From the NCBI RefSeq assembly GCF_000239275.1, contig NZ_JH417570.1, positions 1 through 61,250 of the forward strand: DNA of 61,250 bases. Direction: 5' to 3'. This document shows positions 31,648 to 41,245 of the stretch, piece after piece. The translations under genes and the position numbers were made by a program. The stretch is from Megasphaera geminata F0357 (GTDB lineage Bacteria; Bacillota; Negativicutes; Veillonellales; Megasphaeraceae). How positions within the stretch are numbered: the first letter of the stretch is position 1; every line of letters starts with the position of its first letter. The notes under the pieces were generated by a model. The model did no database searches. It saw only the letters and a list, made by a program, of their open reading frames with translations, and had not been told where the DNA came from.

Positions 31648-32955
31648 ATGGAAAATGTAGACGGTCAAGCACGTACCGCGCAAAAGATGACTCAGTTCAG
31701 ATGGAAAGTAGCGCTCTTTATTTTTCTCCTTAGTTTTATAGCATATATGGATCGTGTCAATCTGTCCGTCGCAACACCTGTCATTATGCAGGAATTCGGC
31801 TTTAATAAAGTTGATATGGGTTTTATTCAGACCTGTTTTTTTGCGGGTTATGCGCTGATGCAGGTACCCGGCGGCATTATTGCCGAAAAATTCGGCCTTC
31901 GGAAGACCGGTACGGTTGCCATGTTCTGGTGGTCTTTCTTCACGGCCCTGACCGCGACGGCAACGACAAAACTCGACTTTGCGGCCGTCCGCTTCGCTTT
32001 CGGGATCGGTGAAGGGCCCGTATTTCCCGCATTGGGGCAGACCGCGTTTAAATGGTTCAACAGTAACGAAAAAGGGAAGGCCAGTTCGGCCATCCTTGCA
32101 GGCGTATTCTTCGGCCCCGTTGTCGGTCCCGCCGTAACCGTAGGTTTGATCACGGTTTTCGGTTGGCATGAAGTATTTCTTATTTTCGGCGGTGCGGGAA
32201 TTCTTTTATCCTTTATCTGGCATCGCTGCCTGACGGATGATCCGGCGGACAACAAGCACGTCAATGCCGCTGAAACGGCCTATATCAATTTGGGACGCAA
32301 CGAAGCGTCATACGAAAAGAAAGTCGCTCCCTGGCACCGGTTAATATGTAATCCCCGTTTCTGGGCAGTCGGCATCCAGTTTATGGTCGTCGACTATATT
32401 ATGTATGTATTTCTCGCCTGGTTGCCTCTCTATTTGACGGAAGCGCACGGGCTTTCTTTAAAATCAATGGGATTCTGGGCATCCCTGCCGTGGCTTGCGC
32501 TGACCGCAACGGTTCTCTTGGCGGGCTGGTTCTCCGATAAACTTGCCATGGGTGTCAATAAACAAAGACAGTATACCATGCGTACTGTATCGGCCGTTAT
32601 CGGTATCGTCGTGACGTCTGTCGGCCTCATTATGGCGGCGAATACATCATCTGTGGGCATGAACATTTTCTGGATGACCGTTTCTCTCGGGTTCCTCGGC
32701 TTCTGCATGAGCGCCAGCTGGTCTTCCGTTATTTCTCTCGGCGGCAGGTACACGGGATCCGTTTCCGGGTGGATCAATCTCTGGGGGAATATAGGCGGCA
32801 TTTTGGCGCCGATCGGGACGGCTTTTCTTGTAGAAGCGTACGGCTGGGACAGCGCTTTCATAACTACCGCGCTTTTCGGTATCGTCGTAATCGTTTGCTG
32901 GCTTTTCGTCAAACCCGGTAAAGCCCTTATCGAGGAAGAGGCTATTCGGGAATAG
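31648..32955 (+). CDS. MFS transporter, anion:cation symporter type
   Basis: A 435-residue carrier with 12 predicted helices. The ACS-family signature near helix 1, FIAYMDRVNLSVATPVIMQE, and the loop 2-3 motif GGIIAEKFGLRKTG are clear. Members of this family import organic anions such as hexuronates, glucarate, galactonate and phthalate with protons or sodium. No catabolic enzymes for sugar acids lie nearby, so the substrate is unknown; the downstream glycyl radical enzyme is a possible but unproven user. SD TAAGGTGAT precedes the ATG. Its long structured leader suggests regulated expression. Confidence 0.88.
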   Translation: MENVDGQARTAQKMTQFRWKVALFIFLLSFIAYMDRVNLSVATPVIMQEFGFNKVDMGFIQTCFFAGYALMQVPGGIIAEKFGLRKTGTVAMFWWSFFTALTATATTKLDFAAVRFAFGIGEGPVFPALGQTAFKWFNSNEKGKASSAILAGVFFGPVVGPAVTVGLITVFGWHEVFLIFGGAGILLSFIWHRCLTDDPADNKHVNAAETAYINLGRNEASYEKKVAPWHRLICNPRFWAVGIQFMVVDYIMYVFLAWLPLYLTEAHGLSLKSMGFWASLPWLALTATVLLAGWFSDKLAMGVNKQRQYTMRTVSAVIGIVVTSVGLIMAANTSSVGMNIFWMTVSLGFLGFCMSASWSSVISLGGRYTGSVSGWINLWGNIGGILAPIGTAFLVEAYGWDSAFITTALFGIVVIVCWLFVKPGKALIEEEAIRE

Positions 32956-33681: not shown

Positions 33682-33720
33682 AGCTTTCCCGGCACCCACA
33701 TATGTCAGGAGGAAATGCGA

Positions 33721-34758
33721 ATGATTCGATTTGAATGTGATTACTTGGAAGGCGCGGCGCCGCAGATCCTGGAGGCCATCGCGCAGGCAAATTATGAGCA
33801 AAATCCCGGTTACGGCTGTGATCCTCATACCGAGCGGGCATGTGAACTGATCCGGGAGGCTTGCAAAACGAAGGATATTGCCGTCTGTTTTGTTGTCGGC
33901 GGCACGCAGGCCAATCTCACCGTTATCGGGGCGGCCCTGAAAAATTATCAGGGTGTCATTGCGCCTGTTACGTCTCATATTAATACTCATGAAGCAGGCG
34001 CTATTGAATTGACGGGACACAAGGTTATTTCCGTGTCTTCTCCCGACGGCAAAATCAGACCGGAGCAGGTTGAGAAACGATGCAAGGCCTATACGGCCGA
34101 TGCGCACCGGACCCATTTGGTACAGCCCGGTATGGTTTATATTTCTCAAACGACGGAAGTAGGGACCCTCTATACGAAGGCGGAAGTAAAAGCACTTCAC
34201 GACGTATGTAAGAAATACGGCCTTCTTCTTTTCCTTGACGGCGCTCGTCTCGGATATGCCGTGGAATCACCAGGCAACGATTTAAAACTGGAAGACTTGC
34301 CGCACCTTTGCGATGTCTTTACTATCGGCGGAACAAAGCAGGGCGCCCTGTTCGGGGAAGCTGCGGTCATTGTCGATGAAGAACTGAAACGCGAGTTTCC
34401 GTACCATATTAAACAACGCGGCGCCCTGCTTGCCAAGGGATGGCTTTTGGGAATTCAATATGAGACGCTCTTTACGGACAATCTGTATTTCCGTTTGGCC
34501 AGACATGCGGCCGATTTAGCCGTAAAAATGCACAAGGGATTTAAAGAGGCGGGCTTTGATTTTCTTCATAACCACGAGACGAATCAGCAACTGCCTATTT
34601 TCACGCAGACACAGTTTGACAGACTGAAGGAAAAGGGTTTTTATTTTGACCATTTTGCAGATATGAAAGACGGCCGCATTGTAACGCGTTTTTGTACGTC
34701 ATGGGCTACCGATCCCGCCAATGTAGATAAACTTTTAGAAGCGATAAAAGATTTATAG
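33721..34758 (+). CDS. Threonine aldolase family PLP enzyme
   Basis: A 345-residue fold-type I PLP enzyme. The PLP lysine is in FTIGGTKQGALFGEA, the PLP-stacking residue region is VVGGTQANLTVIGAAL, and the Asp that pairs with the pyridine N lies in LLLFLDGARLGYA. The nearest functional family is low-specificity L-threonine aldolase (threonine to glycine and acetaldehyde); related beta-eliminating or aldolase activities are possible. ATG 33721 is 7 nt after AGGAGGA, better than ATG 33715. A terminator follows, so it is not cotranscribed with the glycyl radical enzyme. Confidence 0.87.
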   Translation: MIRFECDYLEGAAPQILEAIAQANYEQNPGYGCDPHTERACELIREACKTKDIAVCFVVGGTQANLTVIGAALKNYQGVIAPVTSHINTHEAGAIELTGHKVISVSSPDGKIRPEQVEKRCKAYTADAHRTHLVQPGMVYISQTTEVGTLYTKAEVKALHDVCKKYGLLLFLDGARLGYAVESPGNDLKLEDLPHLCDVFTIGGTKQGALFGEAAVIVDEELKREFPYHIKQRGALLAKGWLLGIQYETLFTDNLYFRLARHAADLAVKMHKGFKEAGFDFLHNHETNQQLPIFTQTQFDRLKEKGFYFDHFADMKDGRIVTRFCTSWATDPANVDKLLEAIKDL

Positions 34759-34808: not shown

Positions 34809-35018
34809 AATTTTTCTTTTAACAATTCAGTTCAGCATCGAACATAAAGAGATACAGTATTAATAATCGAGTCGTCGTGAAATTCGGATGTAATATATAT
34901 CCGCCTGTTCACTGCCGGGAGAGAATACTTTGAAGAAATTGCAGTGTCATAAAAAATTATCATACATGAAACGGAACTATATCAGTATGGCAGCTCCTTC
35001 ATTTTTACGTAGTTAATA
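34809..35018. other. AT-rich non-coding stretch upstream of the glycyl radical enzyme
   Basis: Together with the terminator before it and the promoter after it, this forms a gene-free gap of 316 bp (34759-35074). No open frame with an SD is visible. It is clearly AT-richer than the flanking operons. One short dyad CGGAT...ATCCG (about 34885-34902) could be a protein site. Nothing else is recognised. Confidence 0.5.
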
Positions 35019-35047
35019 TGTTATAATGACTATATAGACTTTATAAC
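35019..35047 (+). promoter_or_regulatory. Extended -10 promoter with overlapping dyad, glycyl radical enzyme gene
   Basis: TG-T-TATAAT (35019-35027) is a full extended -10; the -35 is weak. The arms GTTATAA (35020-35026) and TTATAAC (35041-35047) form an inverted repeat covering the -10 and start point, as expected for a repressor operator. Confidence 0.6.
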
Positions 35048-35074
35048 GTATGTGCAAGGTGGAGGTGATAGGTT

Positions 35075-37446
35075 ATGTTGACGGAACGTATTCAAATGGC
35101 GAAAGATAATTACGTAAACAGTAAACCCCATATTTCGTATGAACGGGCGAGAATTTGGACGGAAGCGTATAAAAAGACTGAGGGAGAACCGGTGATTATA
35201 CGAAGAGCCAAGGCTTTCGGCGCCGTTTGTGAACAGTTGGCGGTTACTATCTTTCCCGGAGAGTTAATTGTCGGTGCCGTCGGTGAGTTTCGCAAGTGCG
35301 GTATTCTGACACCCGAATTTTCTTGGACATGGGTAGATGCGGAAATGGACAGTTTTTCTGAACGCGTACAGGATCCTTACGAAATGACCGATGAACAGCG
35401 GCAATTTGTGCGTAATCATATATTCCCCTATTGGCGGGGAAAATCCCTTGAAGAGGCATATTTGGCGCAGCTGCCGAAAGAAATCGCAAAAGTTGCCGTT
35501 GATACGGGTATTATTGATATTGATTCAAAATGGCGGCAATCTGTCGGTGAAATTACGCCGGACTATGAAGACGGATTATTTCCTAAAGGATTACGCGGCA
35601 TTATTGAAGAGTGCAGGGCGAAAAAAAGTAAGTTAAACCTTTCATATCCGGGGGATCGGGAAAAAAGAGAGTTTTATGATTCGGTTATTTTAGTAAGCAA
35701 GGGATTGATTACACTGGCCCGCCGTTATGCCGACAAAGCCGAATTGACGGCAGAAACTGAAAAGGACAAAGAGCGTAAGCGTGAGTTGATGGATATTGCT
35801 CGCATTTGCCGGCGTGTTCCCGAATTTTCTCCCGCATCATTTTTCAGGAAGCTTTACAGATGATCTGGTTCTATCAACTGGGCGGAATCTTGATGGAAAA
35901 TCCCCTTTCTTTAAATCCCGGTCGGTTTGATCAGTATATGTACCCGTATTATCAATATGACGTTCGGCATAAGCTTCACAGTAATGAAGAAATTTTGGAG
36001 CTTATTGAATGTTACTGGTTGAAATTATCTGAATGGGTCTGGACTATTTCAGCTAATACAGCCGATTTTTTTGCCGGCTATAACCAGTTTCAGAATCTTA
36101 CTGTCGGAGGTTGTGATCGGGACGGTAAAGATGTTACGAATGAACTCAGTTATTTAGCGTTGAGAGCAACTTCGGAGTTAAAGACACACCAGCCGGGGCT
36201 TTCTGTTCGAATATCCAGAGACAGTCCGCGTGAGTTTATCGATGCTGTTATGGAGTTGGTCGCACAGGGAACGGGATTTCCGGCTATTCACAGTGATAGA
36301 ACCGGATATCGCATGTTGAAAAATTTAGGATATGAAACGGAAGATGCGCGCGATTGGAATAATTGCGGTTGTGTTGTGCCGCACTTCCGTAAGACTTTTG
36401 AATGGACCAGTACCGTTAACGTCAACTTCAGCGGTGCTCTGGAATATGCTACCAACGGTGGAAAAAGCCGCCTTACGGGCAAACAGATGGGCCTTGCTTT
36501 AAACAGATCCCGTAAGTTTAAGACATATGAAGAACTGGAAGCCGCGTTTTTCAAACAGTTTGATAATTTAATTGAAATTTCCGTTGCAGGCACGCTCGTT
36601 GCTCAGAAATTACAGAAGGAAATGATTCCGCGCCCCCTGTTTTCCGCTTTGTTCGGGGAATGCCTTGAGTCGGGACGGGATCTGGTGGAGGGCGGGGCCA
36701 AATATAATATTGGGCCGGTGCTTACGGGTATCGGACTGGCGGAAACGGCGAACAGCCTTGCTGCAATTAAACAACTCGTTTACGTTGATAAAGTTTGCAC
36801 TGTAGATGAATTGTTAACGGCTCTTGATCATAACTGGGAAGGATATGAAAAGCTGCGGGTCTTGGCTGTCGGAGCGCCTAAGTACGGCAATGATAATGAT
36901 TTCGTAGATGATATTGCCCGTAAGATAGCTAATCATTTCAACGAAAAGGCAAGTACGTATACTGATATTTACGGGAGCCGATTTGTCAGCGCTTTTATGG
37001 GTATTTCCAACTTTATCCCGACCGGTCGTGTCATTGGAGCCACCGCCAGCGGCAGAAAAGCGGGAACTCCAATTTCGGAGGGGGTTTCACCGGTCGCGGG
37101 AACGGATATATCTACGCCGTTGGCAGTTATGAAATCGGCGGCAAAAATGAATCAGGATATTCATTCCGGCGGTACGTTGCTGAATATCAGACTGGGGCAT
37201 GAGCTTGTTAATACGAAACGAGGACGCAGCAGCCTTGCTGCCGCCGTCCTGGCGTTTTTTGATCTGGGCGCCTTCCATGTCCAATTCAATACGCTGTCTA
37301 CGGAAACATTGCTTGATGCGCAGGCCCATCCGGAAAATTACAAAGATTTACTGGTCCGTGTCGCCGGCTACAGCACTCAGTTCGTACACTTGTCGAAAAC
37401 ACTGCAGGACTCGATTATACGCAGGAGCGTACATAATGCCTTCTAA
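35075..37446 (+). CDS. Glycyl radical enzyme of unassigned substrate (frameshifted)
   Basis: An oxygen-sensitive radical enzyme of about 790 residues in the pyruvate formate-lyase/diol dehydratase superfamily. The glycyl loop LLVRVAGYSTQFVHLSKTLQ is canonical (radical Gly codon 37366-37368). The thiyl loop reads NNCGCVVP (catalytic Cys codon 36370-36372); the Glu two residues after Cys in glycerol, choline, hydroxyproline and isethionate enzymes is Val here. Two frames, 35075-35863 and 35806-37446, join if one T is added to the T5 run near 35846, giving PASFFQEALQMIWFYQL. It overlaps its activase gene by 11 nt. Codons look AT-richer than neighbours, which hints at transfer. Confidence 0.88.
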
Positions 37447-38339
37447 AGGGAAGGTGCTTCAGTTACAGCATTATTCGCTTAATGACGGGAGCGGCATCCG
37501 GACGATCATTTTTTTCGCAGGCTGTCCTTTGCGCTGCAAGTGGTGTGCGGAATCCGGAAGGATTCAGTACGAAAAATCATATTATGTACGATTCGACCCG
37601 CTGTACCGCTTGCGATGAATGCCGCGCCGCCTGTCCGATAGGTCTGGCACCGGACCTGAATGATGAAAAAGTAAGACGGAATTGTACCGGATGCGGTGCT
37701 TGCGTGACCGTATGTCTTACAGGGGCGCGGAGGAACAGTCTTTATGAAATAACCGTCGAGGAGGCAGTATCCGCATTGGAGCCGCAGCGTATATTTTTTG
37801 AACAGTCAGGTGGCGGAGTGACTTATTCCGGCGGTGAGTGTACACAGCAGGCAAAATTCCTGTGCGATTTATCACAGACAATGTATGATCTGGGGATCAG
37901 TCAGACGATGGAGACAAGCGGTTATTTTGAATTGGACAGGATTCGGCCTGTTTTGGAACGAGTGGATTTACTGTTCATTGATATTAAGATGATGGATAGA
38001 GAGCGGCATAAATACTATACCGGTGTAGATAACACGCTTATTTTGAAAAATATACGCACGCTCGGAGCGGAGGAAAAACAAATTGTTATCCGTATTCCGT
38101 TAATCATGGGGGTAAACGGGGATGATGAAAATGTGAAAAACACGGCGGCTTTTGTCAAACGATACCTTCCGTATCCTAAAATAGAACTGTTGCCGTATCA
38201 TGAGTATGGCAAAGATAAGTACCGACAATTGGGATTGGTATATGAAAATACCGGATTCCGCACTCCTTCGGCAGAAGAATTGGAGAAATGTGAAAATATC
38301 ATACGTTCACAAGGAGTGGAAATGATTTCCTATAAGTAG
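37436..38339 (+). CDS. Glycyl radical enzyme activating enzyme (frameshifted)
   Basis: A ~300-residue radical-SAM activase that abstracts hydrogen from the partner's glycine. It begins KGKVLQLQHYSLNDGSGIRT and has the radical SAM motif GCPLRCKWC. An insert carries two ferredoxin-type clusters, CTACDECRAACP and CTGCGACVTVC, as in activases of non-PFL glycyl radical enzymes. The frame breaks near 37549: removing one G from GCGGAAT gives CKWCANPEGFSTK, the expected CxNPE motif, so a 1-nt insertion is inferred. Translation is probably coupled to the upstream enzyme by the overlapping start. Confidence 0.88.
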
Positions 38340-38480: not shown

Positions 38481-39050
38481 TCAATATTTCATCAGATTTT
38501 GAAATATGACATCTTCCTTCGTTTCGTTGGCATAGGTATGGTGGATATTACAGGGGAAATTAATTTTTGCGGGGGCCTCGAGATGAAAGGTTTTATCTTC
38601 CAATAGTAATGTAAGCGTGCCCTTCGTCACGACTATATATTCTTCCACCATCTCCCTGTGGGGTTCTGAACGATGTATTGTATCGGGCTTGAGGATAATA
38701 TAAAAATACTCGAAACCGCGGATCGGTGAAAACGGAAAGGTATTATAGAGAATCATGGAGCGGTTTTCATTGTAAATCGGCGGTATCTCCGTAGTAATAT
38801 GTACCGGTTTATAATTTTGTTCCGGTTCATTAAGCAAGGTGGAAAGAGAGACTTGTAAACCCTTGGCAATTTTCCACAGGACGGAGATCGTCGGGACGGA
38901 GACGCCGCGTTCGATCTGTCCCAGCATTGTCTTGCTTACGCCGGTAATTTCGGCTGCATTATCTAAGGTTAAAGATCGTTCTTGTCTGATTTTTTTTAAT
39001 ACACGCCCTATTTCGTTAACAGGATCATAGGCATCGCCGGTATTGATCAT
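38481..39050 (-). CDS. XRE-cupin transcriptional regulator
   Basis: A 189-residue regulator with an XRE helix-turn-helix at residues ~12-65 (LKKIRQERSLTLDNAAEITG, then MLGQIERGVSVPTISVLWK) and a C-terminal cupin_2 sensor (RSEPHREMVEEYIVVTKGTL, then HHTYANETKEDVI) with the metal-type His/Glu pattern partly kept. Such proteins control small-molecule catabolism or transport in response to a ligand. It is 4 nt downstream of the transglycosylase gene and probably shares its promoter. It faces the glycyl radical enzyme pair and may regulate it; this is inference. Confidence 0.88.
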   Translation of the reverse strand: MINTGDAYDPVNEIGRVLKKIRQERSLTLDNAAEITGVSKTMLGQIERGVSVPTISVLWKIAKGLQVSLSTLLNEPEQNYKPVHITTEIPPIYNENRSMILYNTFPFSPIRGFEYFYIILKPDTIHRSEPHREMVEEYIVVTKGTLTLLLEDKTFHLEAPAKINFPCNIHHTYANETKEDVIFQNLMKY

Positions 39051-39954: not shown

Positions 39955-40018
39955 TTTACTCATCATAGCGGCCGATATTGTTTCGACCCAAGCCGAGATA
40001 ATGAAAGGAGTATGGAAA

Positions 40019-41245
40019 ATGAATGAGATTAAAAAGATTGTCTTAGCGTATTCCGGAGGGTTGGATACGTCCGTGATTATACCGTGGTTGAAAGAAAACT
40101 ACAAAGGCGCCGAAGTCATCGCGGCCTGTGCCGATGTGGGCCAGCCTGACGATTTTCCGGCCATTGAAAAAAAGGCTTATGCGTCCGGTGCGTCTAAGGT
40201 CTATATCATGGATATAAAAAAAGAATTTTTGGAAGAGTATGTTTGGCCCGTCGTTAAAGCGGGTTGCGTCTATGAAGGTAAATATCTTCTCGGCACATCC
40301 TTTGCGCGGCCGCTTATCTCCAAAAAACTTGTTGAAGTTGCCAGAAAGGAAGGAGCCGATGCCATTGCCCACGGCGCGACCGGTAAGGGAAATGACCAGG
40401 TCCGGTTTGAGCTTACGGTCAAAGCGCTGGCGCCGGACATCAAGCTGATTGCACCTTGGAGAATGTGGCATATTAAATCAAGAGAAGATGCCCTTGCATA
40501 TGCGGCTGCACATAATGTTCCCATTGCCCATCAAACGGAAGGAGAACCGTAACCGTACAGTATGGACTGGAATATCTGGCATCTCAGCCATGAAGGAGCG
40601 GATTTGGAAAACCCGGCGAATGCGCCGAAAGATATGGTTTATATGGTAACGACACCTCCCGAAAAAGCTCCGGATATGCCGGAATACGTGGAAATAGGCT
40701 TTGAAAAAGGCATTCCCGTTTCCGTTAACGGAGAGAAAATGGGTGCCGTTGAGCTTTTGACGAAACTCAATGCCGTCGGAGCGAAAAACGGTATAGGCAT
40801 TGTCGATATTGTCGAAAACAGACTCGTCGGCATGAAGAGCCGGGGCATTTATGAAAACCCCGGCGGTGCCATCATCATGTATGCGCACAAAGAGCTGGAA
40901 TACCTTTGTCTTGATCGGGCGACGATGCACTGCAAAGAACAGCTTGCCGGCAAATATGCGGATCTCGTTTATGACGGTATGTGGTTCTCCACCTTACGGG
41001 ACGCTTTGGCGGCCTTCGTCGACGTGACGCAGGAAACGGTTACGGGCACTGTCCGGTTGAAACTGTATAAGGGCAATATTATCAGTGCCGGATCGACGTC
41101 GCCGTATTCCTTATATAGCGAAGAATTTGTCACGTTCGGTGAAGACGAAGTGTACAACCAAAAAGATGCGGAAGGTTTCATCAACCTCTTCGGCTTACCC
41201 CTCAAAATGAAAGCCATGATGATGCGGAAAACGGAGAAAAAGTAG
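40019..41245 (+). CDS. argG: Argininosuccinate synthase, interrupted by a 6-bp duplication
   Basis: Joins citrulline and aspartate with ATP to argininosuccinate. The ATP loop [17 protein letters not shown] and later blocks [13 protein letters not shown] and [17 protein letters not shown] are conserved; total length ~408 residues is normal. An in-frame TAA at 40550-40552 splits it (183 residues from the upstream ATG, then 41 kDa-family continuation from ATG 40562 in the same frame). The stop arises from a tandem copy of AACCGT (40545-40550, 40551-40556); removing one copy gives HQTEGEPYSMDWN without any frame change. ATG 40019 is 8 nt after AAAGGAG. Confidence 0.9.

Follow-up and report, generated by a model that had tools for sequence, protein, structure and literature searches.

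Earlier subfamilies of the glycyl radical enzymes (GREs) proved to carry key reactions of gut and sediment, namely those of trimethylamine, p-cresol, H2S and hydroxyproline. The eliminases of this superfamily, such as the choline lyase CutC and HypD, hold a Glu residue beside the thiyl Cys in a Cys-x-Glu (CxE) loop, and this residue underpins their mechanisms. The stretch analysed here (61,250 nucleotides of contig NZ_JH417570.1, hereafter the window) belongs to a Megasphaera-like draft assembly (1.80 Mb, 57 contigs) and contains a GRE gene whose thiyl loop reads Cys-Val-Val, with Val in place of the CxE Glu. The kind of enzyme is known, and the subfamily is new; it is apparently undescribed, as far as the literature search, NCBIfam, Pfam and the PDB show. 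Our most secure claim is that the Cys-Val-Val GREs form a real and conserved family that occurs patchily in several phyla and to which the sources searched assign no substrate.

The window gene shows the marks of the GRE superfamily: the glycyl loop RVxGY, the catalytic Cys, a radical S-adenosylmethionine (SAM) activase gene nearby, and the Pfam domains PFL-like (223.8 and 416.8 bits for the two pieces into which a frameshift splits the gene) and Gly_radical (102.4 bits). Both loops named in the original prediction, RVAGYS and NNCGCVVP, were read directly at their positions (Table 1). Further analysis of the family was based on intact GRE copies from relatives. From a scan of genome contigs, the best 80 of 585 relatives were taken; 63 of them share 56–83% identity and 17 share 37–41%, with a gap between. 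The closest named relative among the matches listed is a Megasphaera metagenome-assembled genome (MAG; locus L002), with 83% identity over the second GRE piece. In a first set of 100 loci, all 71 close rows read [N/S]-N-C-G-C-V-V-P-H, and the 29 other GREs carry C-x-E (27) or the PFL-type C-C-V-A (2). All 101 related loci (96 distinct, in 30 clusters at 80% identity) keep CGCVVP; they were picked by overall similarity, and of the six patterns used in the scan, DWNNCGCV stops just before the second Val. Therefore, the motif in the window is not a chance event.

Among the matches listed, the Cys-Val-Val GRE records span several phyla. The named hosts are Megasphaera, Sedimentibacter, Clostridium magnum, Anaerotignum, Tissierella, Sporomusa, Pectinatus, Acidaminobacter, Dethiosulfatibacter, Romboutsia, Clostridioides difficile strains HC132 and CD160, Synergistaceae, a Treponema MAG, Cohaesibacter and Oleispirillum, and we take many of these taxa to be amino-acid fermenters. 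The distribution is patchy in the host phylum (5 of 398 genomes sampled, two of the five outside the own genus), and in the host class the gene was found in 44 of 380 genomes and 22 of 102 genera. The literature search, which did not cover subscription papers, found the Cys-Val-Val GRE in no paper title or abstract start.

In a 42-row tree built by a quick method, with HypD, CutC, HPAD, PFL and unassigned GREs as the only references and with long PFL and HPAD branches, the 20 Val rows form one branch (Shimodaira–Hasegawa-like approximate likelihood ratio test (SH-aLRT) 100; stem 0.42). Together with a Synergistes GRE and two CutC rows, this branch forms a group (SH-aLRT 98; internal order unsettled). 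The Synergistes GRE, which reads GGCVETN, is the second of two adjacent and very different tandem GRE genes in a Synergistes MAG (L066, 4774–7143 and 7182–9578); the first has the thiyl loop CMNCVESD and is nearest to glycerol dehydratase in the PDB search. The Val clade falls in no CHARACTERISED subfamily tested. Six members reached no NCBIfam equivalog cut-off; three of the six passed the broad PFL2-3 cut-off. Against the CutC model TIGR04394 (cut-off 1050 bits), the six scored 701.2 (L002), 774.9 (L045), 754.9 (L035), 722.8 (L034), 691.3 (L040) and 721.6 (L122), and C-V-V replaces CxE in all 101 loci. They scored 545–625 bits against the HypD model NF043068 (cut-off 1100), with CxE, Ser334 and Thr645 changed. 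Five members were scored against the models for PFL (TIGR01255, 120–165 bits, cut-off 994.2), which has a Cys-Cys pair where the clade has Cys-Gly-Cys, and for the arylacetate decarboxylases HPAD (NF033715, 312–366 bits, cut-off 1150) and IAD (NF033718, 373–438 bits, cut-off 1100); the HPAD copy seen has CLE at the thiyl loop. In the PDB, the second GRE piece matches CutC (best chain 407.7 bits) and 8id1 best, with HplG at 238.6 and benzylsuccinate synthase at 220.5 bits. Five of the 17 nearest PDB matches to a 58-residue thiyl-loop query were inspected (8id1, three CutC and 8iof), and all read Cys-Val-Glu. The separate branch, the equivalog scores and the thiyl-loop matches agree with the original prediction in so far as the enzyme lies outside the characterised GRE subfamilies tested and is not PFL. 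Clustering inside a characterised C-V-V-P subfamily, named in the original prediction as the outcome that would tell against it, was not seen in the tree, NCBIfam or PDB searches, since no characterised subfamily took in the Val clade in what was searchable.

The pocket was compared by sequence alignment alone, with residue numbers of L002; for CutC, we take the relevant residues to be Tyr208, Asp216, Glu491 and Thr502. Cys432 is the thiyl Cys, and Val434 occupies the position of the eliminase Glu. Asp148, Asp150, Ser151, Lys152, Trp153, Arg154, Glu159, Phe332, His371, His405, Asp407, Trp427, Asn429, Cys430, His436, Thr444, Asn643 and His732 are invariant in all 57 aligned rows. Glu159 aligns with CutC Asp216 and HypD His160, where the reference rows have Asp, His or Arg, and Thr444 aligns with CutC Thr502. 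Arg154 aligns with HypD Arg156, and Phe332 with CutC Phe389 and HypD Ser334 (HypD numbers and Phe389 from an excerpt of PMC7077986). According to the same excerpt, HypD Arg156 may help stabilise the substrate carboxylate. Glu159 might take over the role of the missing CxE Glu, and the acid–base apparatus looks rearranged more than simply lost.

Because the Glu beside the active-site Cys is Val, the reaction is probably not one of the known GRE reactions. For substrate and chemistry, we infer, with a probability of about one in three, that the GRE acts on an amino-acid-type substrate, often delivered as an N-acyl amino acid or dipeptide, and that an imine is formed and converted to pyruvate. 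The activase would make the glycyl radical, which would pass to the Cys encoded at 36370–36372, and the thiyl would take a hydrogen next to the nitrogen of the substrate, as HypD does. The substrate may be free or arrive as an N-acyl compound or dipeptide opened by an M20 enzyme. The β-substituent would be expelled with no base assistance from the Cys loop, and return of the hydrogen would give an imine or enamine. Hydrolysis of this product, RidA-assisted or not, would yield ammonium and pyruvate, the latter to be consumed by pyruvate:ferredoxin oxidoreductase (PFOR), and the regulator would respond to the substrate. The loss of the CxE Glu fits this proposal, since no hydroxyl group needs deprotonation in such an elimination. 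The conservation of CGCVVP, the separate branch, the lack of an equivalog, the M20, YjiH and DUF5058 partners, Arg154 at the position of HypD Arg156 and the amino-acid fermentation of many named hosts speak for it. That the family represents a new GRE reaction class, a radical elimination that needs no Cys-loop Glu and leads an α-amino acid, free or in N-acyl or dipeptide form, through an imine to pyruvate, is a tentative proposal.

The ranking of partner genes took in, without selection, all 1093 open reading frames (ORFs) that lie up to 7.5 kb from the GRE across the 101 loci. Many loci stop at contig edges, so that the partner counts are lower bounds, and loci inside one cluster are not independent. 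Apart from the activase, no enzyme partner is as widespread as the M20 hydrolases, which occur in 21 distinct loci and 8 of 30 clusters (a single query finds 20 loci, again in 8 clusters). The best-scoring models for the M20 proteins tested are PRK06133 (glutamate carboxypeptidase) or PRK07338, with scores that stay under the cut-offs. A YjiH GATE protein is found near the GRE in 13 loci of 4 clusters. The groups in four clusters or fewer include YjiG, a second amidohydrolase group and a DUF5058 pair (three each; DUF5058 in three loci); L136 was shown to carry PF16481 (DUF5058) and Gate domains. An AbgT-family transporter accompanies M20 genes in L173 (family tested) and L165 (by similarity). 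The M20 enzymes and the peptide- or conjugate-type transporters suggest that an amino-acid amide is taken up and opened. In L045, L178, L179 and L183, the gene order is FCD regulator, GRE, activase, M20, YjiH, YjiG, PFOR and RidA, and RidA and PFOR of L045 score above the NCBIfam cut-offs. The presence of PFOR and RidA in this one linked cluster suggests an imine or enamine that becomes pyruvate. The linked PFOR is one of three to four full-length copies in each of six genomes, and the other two genomes searched have four and two copies, none in the GRE region. The window genome has one RidA above the cut-off and, at three sites, matches to PFOR (at one site split into two pieces); all of these lie outside the window contig. 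Next to the L022 cassette lies a homologue of diaminopropionate ammonia-lyase, an enzyme of 2-aminoacrylate chemistry (TIGR03528 490.2 bits, 532.25 required; PRK08206 489.5 bits, cut-off 276), and L041 has a copy with 53% identity some 3.3 kb upstream. 2-Iminopropionate is a RidA substrate. 2-Aminoacrylate is another, according to an excerpted source. Queries for M20, YjiH, YjiG, PFOR, RidA, DUF5058 and XRE-cupin matched none of 17 control loci of other GREs (four shorter than 10 kb), and the FCD query gave one weak match there.

Several observations weigh against the proposed route from an amino-acid-type substrate to pyruvate. The window is among the loci, about three quarters of the total, in which no M20 gene was seen, and its genome gave no M20 match in a search run without a positive control. 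PFOR (7 loci) and RidA (4 loci) are linked to the GRE in 1 of 30 clusters, RidA may simply travel with PFOR, and the several PFORs of G540 are all unlinked to the GRE. The HypD carboxylate ligands Ser334 and Thr645 correspond to Phe332 and Ile641 in the clade. A relative of 3-hydroxyacyl-CoA dehydrogenase that begins 12 bases after the activase in L156, and the class III CoA-transferase of L038 and L173, are unexplained. Finally, aldo/keto reductases are the second enzyme partner (12 loci, 5 clusters), and the scheme needs none.

These reductases point to a carbonyl product and thereby to the main rival, a conventional dehydratase-like eliminase that acts on a hydroxylated substrate, hands its carbonyl product to the reductase and has its base displaced to the invariant Glu159. 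We consider this rival only slightly less likely than the amino-acid route. All 57 aligned members have Glu159 at the strand position of CutC Asp216 and HypD His160, the overall similarity is to eliminases, CutC first, and the reductase queries matched none of the 17 control loci. The reductase gene lies directly beside the cassette on the opposite strand in L005, L006, L007 and L058 and on the same strand in L020, L025, L029, L037 and L063. However, these adjoining reductases fall in two sequence groups that match named models weakly, and they are less widespread than M20. In addition, all 27 non-PFL GREs compared keep CxE, and no microcompartment genes were recognised by eye among the displayed neighbours. 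The earlier suggestion of new chemistry stays tentative: the CxE Glu has certainly been lost, whereas Glu159 and the aldo/keto reductases leave room for an ordinary eliminase.

In the window, the frameshift reported for the GRE gene is present, and the activase gene is split as well (Table 1). The possibility that the cassette is a recent pseudogene, inactive here even if the family is active elsewhere, seems unlikely to us. In the corresponding region of the relative G004 (L131), where GRE and activase are intact, 15 of 18 ORFs have a window match; GRE and activase each match in two pieces, whereas the other 13 ORFs are unbroken (one antisense), as expected for a decaying cassette. On the other side, intact GRE homologues with 79–90% identity occur in 7 of 16 other same-genus or same-family genomes searched. 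Compared with the intact G004 copy, the nonsynonymous divergence (dN) of the two GRE pieces is 0.085 and 0.059, far below the synonymous divergence (dS) of 1.8 and 2.0, which is near saturation. The resulting dN/dS values of about 0.05 (first piece) and 0.03 (second piece) indicate purifying selection on the protein until recently. Since argG is also interrupted, sequencing or assembly errors in the draft are likely.

Table 1 Features of the window around the GRE gene
Feature	Position	Strand	Evidence or remark
GRE gene, frameshift-split	35075..37446	+	ORFs 35075-35863 and 35806-37446; loops and Pfam
GRE thiyl loop (wider sequence D-W-N-N-C-G-C-V-V-P-H)	36358-36384		Read directly
GRE catalytic-position Cys codon	36370-36372
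Val-Val-Pro	36373-36381
GRE glycyl loop RVAGYS	37357-37374		Gly codon 37366-37368
Radical-SAM GRE activase gene, frameshift-split	37437..38339	+	First piece 37437-37619; second frame ends 38339
XRE-family regulator, C-terminal cupin domain	38481..39050	-	HTH_3 and Cupin_2 above cut-offs; convergent with activase
Inverted repeat ATATGTTATAA / TTATAACGTAT	35016..35051	.	Upstream of GRE; candidate XRE-cupin operator
argG (argininosuccinate synthase)	40001-41245		Named by eye; interrupted at 40552 between two same-frame ORFs
Beta_elim_lyase-domain (threonine-aldolase-like) gene	33715-34758	+	Pyridoxal phosphate (PLP)-dependent; upstream of GRE
MFS gene	31648-32955		Upstream of GRE

C–N cleavage of a quaternary or secondary amine, as by choline lyase or the hydroxyproline lyase HplG, would agree with CutC being the best-scoring characterised family and a member of the same tree group, but we judge it improbable. 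CutC Tyr208 and Glu491, presumably among the residues that hold the trimethylammonium group, are replaced by Ser151 and Val434, the only displayed locus with a betaine-type ABC transporter beside it, as judged by eye, is L034, and HplG is a weak PDB match beside the best CutC chain. Fumarate addition or another C–C bond formation as in the X-succinate synthases, with the product activated by a class III CoA-transferase, is very improbable: in L038, the CoA-transferase gene and the GRE start share four bases, L173 has a homologue downstream, and the Cys-loop oxyanion hole of X-succinate synthases can bind the fumarate carboxylate according to an excerpt of PMC12358834, but the CoA-transferase occurs in 2 of 96 loci, benzylsuccinate synthase scores far below CutC in the PDB search, and the activase follows the GRE in most displayed loci and leaves no space for a small subunit. 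Small Fe–S accessory subunits were not recognised among the ORFs listed, which were called from 60–70 codons upwards.

An activase-type ORF lies near the GRE in 90 of the 96 distinct loci and in all 30 clusters. In the window, the first activase piece carries CX3CX2C, and the second carries two more Cys-cluster motifs and matches TIGR02494 (233.2 bits, cut-off 174.35); the first piece alone (61 residues) matched no family in the profile search. The second cluster region is present in 47 of 65 activase rows, which include a few fragments and one row from another GRE. The dedicated two-cluster activase originally described is thus real in the window but not universal or defining. No second Fe–S cluster region was found in the activases of L011, L012, L019–L021, L023, L024, L026, L030, L038, L039, L045 and L062, which have about 220–235 residues from the SAM motif on, compared with 271, and whose partner GRE is still conserved.

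A regulator homologue was found in 65 of the 96 distinct loci, of the XRE-cupin type in 39 and of the FCD-type GntR in 26. The arms of the window inverted repeat are complementary at 10 of 11 positions, a value equalled by 12 of 300 shuffles. In the upstream regions of the relatives, the palindrome GYRYGTTATAACRYRC is matched at 15–16 of 16 positions in 14 of 61 regions, 45–114 bases before the GRE start (shuffles: mean 10.8, highest 14). All 14 belong to the 35 scanned regions with an XRE-cupin gene in the locus, and none of the other 26 reaches 15/16. The remaining 21 of the 35 stay below 15/16, among them the window, whose best site (12/16) lies within its own shuffles (maximum 13), and seven Anaerotignum-type loci in which the regulator gene directly precedes the GRE; the scan covered the region upstream of the GRE. 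Genome-wide, with up to one mismatch in 10 genomes, GYRYGTTATAACRYRC gave 16 sites compared with 12 for the reversed control. Since the control is nearly as frequent, this search cannot reveal distant targets; 7 of the 10 genomes have a single site, identical in sequence to that before the GRE. An exact copy is found 18 bases ahead of an ORF judged by eye to be YbaK/ProX-like, at G072:C1:4657736, in a Clostridium with the GRE cassette (L139), and L062 also has a YbaK-like ORF. The cassette is likely under a local regulator. The promoter dyad proposed earlier is weak in the window, although the palindrome of the relatives lends it weight, and the proposed small regulated cassette agrees with the GRE–activase synteny, the frequent regulator and the operator-like palindrome in part of the relatives.

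Other neighbours were set aside. The proposed link to a nearby uptake gene found no support. Conservation of the upstream MFS gene of the window does not extend to G004, and the gene was dropped as a part of the system; an MFS-like ORF (by eye) lies near the GRE in L173. A chemotaxis-type sensor ORF (10 loci, 5 clusters) was judged unrelated by position. Genes confined to one lineage or to one to three loci were also set aside, namely threonine aldolase (window, L131), ilvA with BCAT (L040, L046, L047), aspartokinase (L041, L052), a hut-like operon (L051) and TRAP genes (L034, L036). Among the Megasphaera loci seen, the Beta_elim_lyase-domain gene of the window is common to G004 (L131). Paired OSBS/NSAR-like enolases occur together with M20 genes and a class III CoA-transferase in L038 and L173; the Dethiosulfatibacter operon (L038:2477-10348) comprises two such enolases, M20, the CoA-transferase overlapping the GRE start, GRE and activase. 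The enolase was found in 5 of 96 loci of 3 clusters, with a doubtful match in L058 (26%, about 9 kb off), and within 7.5 kb in 3 loci of 2 clusters; it is left unexplained.

As the Val clade lacks the residue that underpins the eliminase mechanisms, how a GRE works without the CxE Glu becomes directly testable, and the context of M20, transporter, reductase and PFOR genes narrows the candidate substrates to a short list. If the amino-acid route is true, anaerobes could use as fermentation substrates those amino-acid conjugates that resist opening by hydrolytic and PLP enzymes. Among the known systems, PFL also lacks the CxE Glu, but it has a Cys-Cys pair (CCVS or CCVA in the copies seen) instead of Cys-Gly-Cys. 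The X-succinate synthases (BSS, MASS), whose Cys loop is said to bind a carboxylate in the excerpt of PMC12358834, differ by their low score against the Val clade; no accessory subunits were recognised among the ORFs listed at the Val-clade loci. PDB entries 8id1 (deposited as formate C-acetyltransferase) and 8iof (benzylsuccinate synthase alpha subunit), for which the literature search by code matched no paper, share Cys-Gly-Cys-Val with the clade but read C-G-C-V-E, with the Glu present. HypD, whose Arg156 equivalent is kept, shares with the clade the amino-acid-type substrate proposed for the latter, but its CxE Glu, Ser334, Thr645 and His160 are all replaced. CutC shares the glycyl loop and, by alignment, the Phe and Thr pocket positions, and it differs in that its CxE Glu is Val, Tyr208 is Ser and Asp216 is Glu in the Val clade, by the CutC numbering that we assume. 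The clade is apparently a GRE subfamily near choline lyase that does without the CxE Glu.

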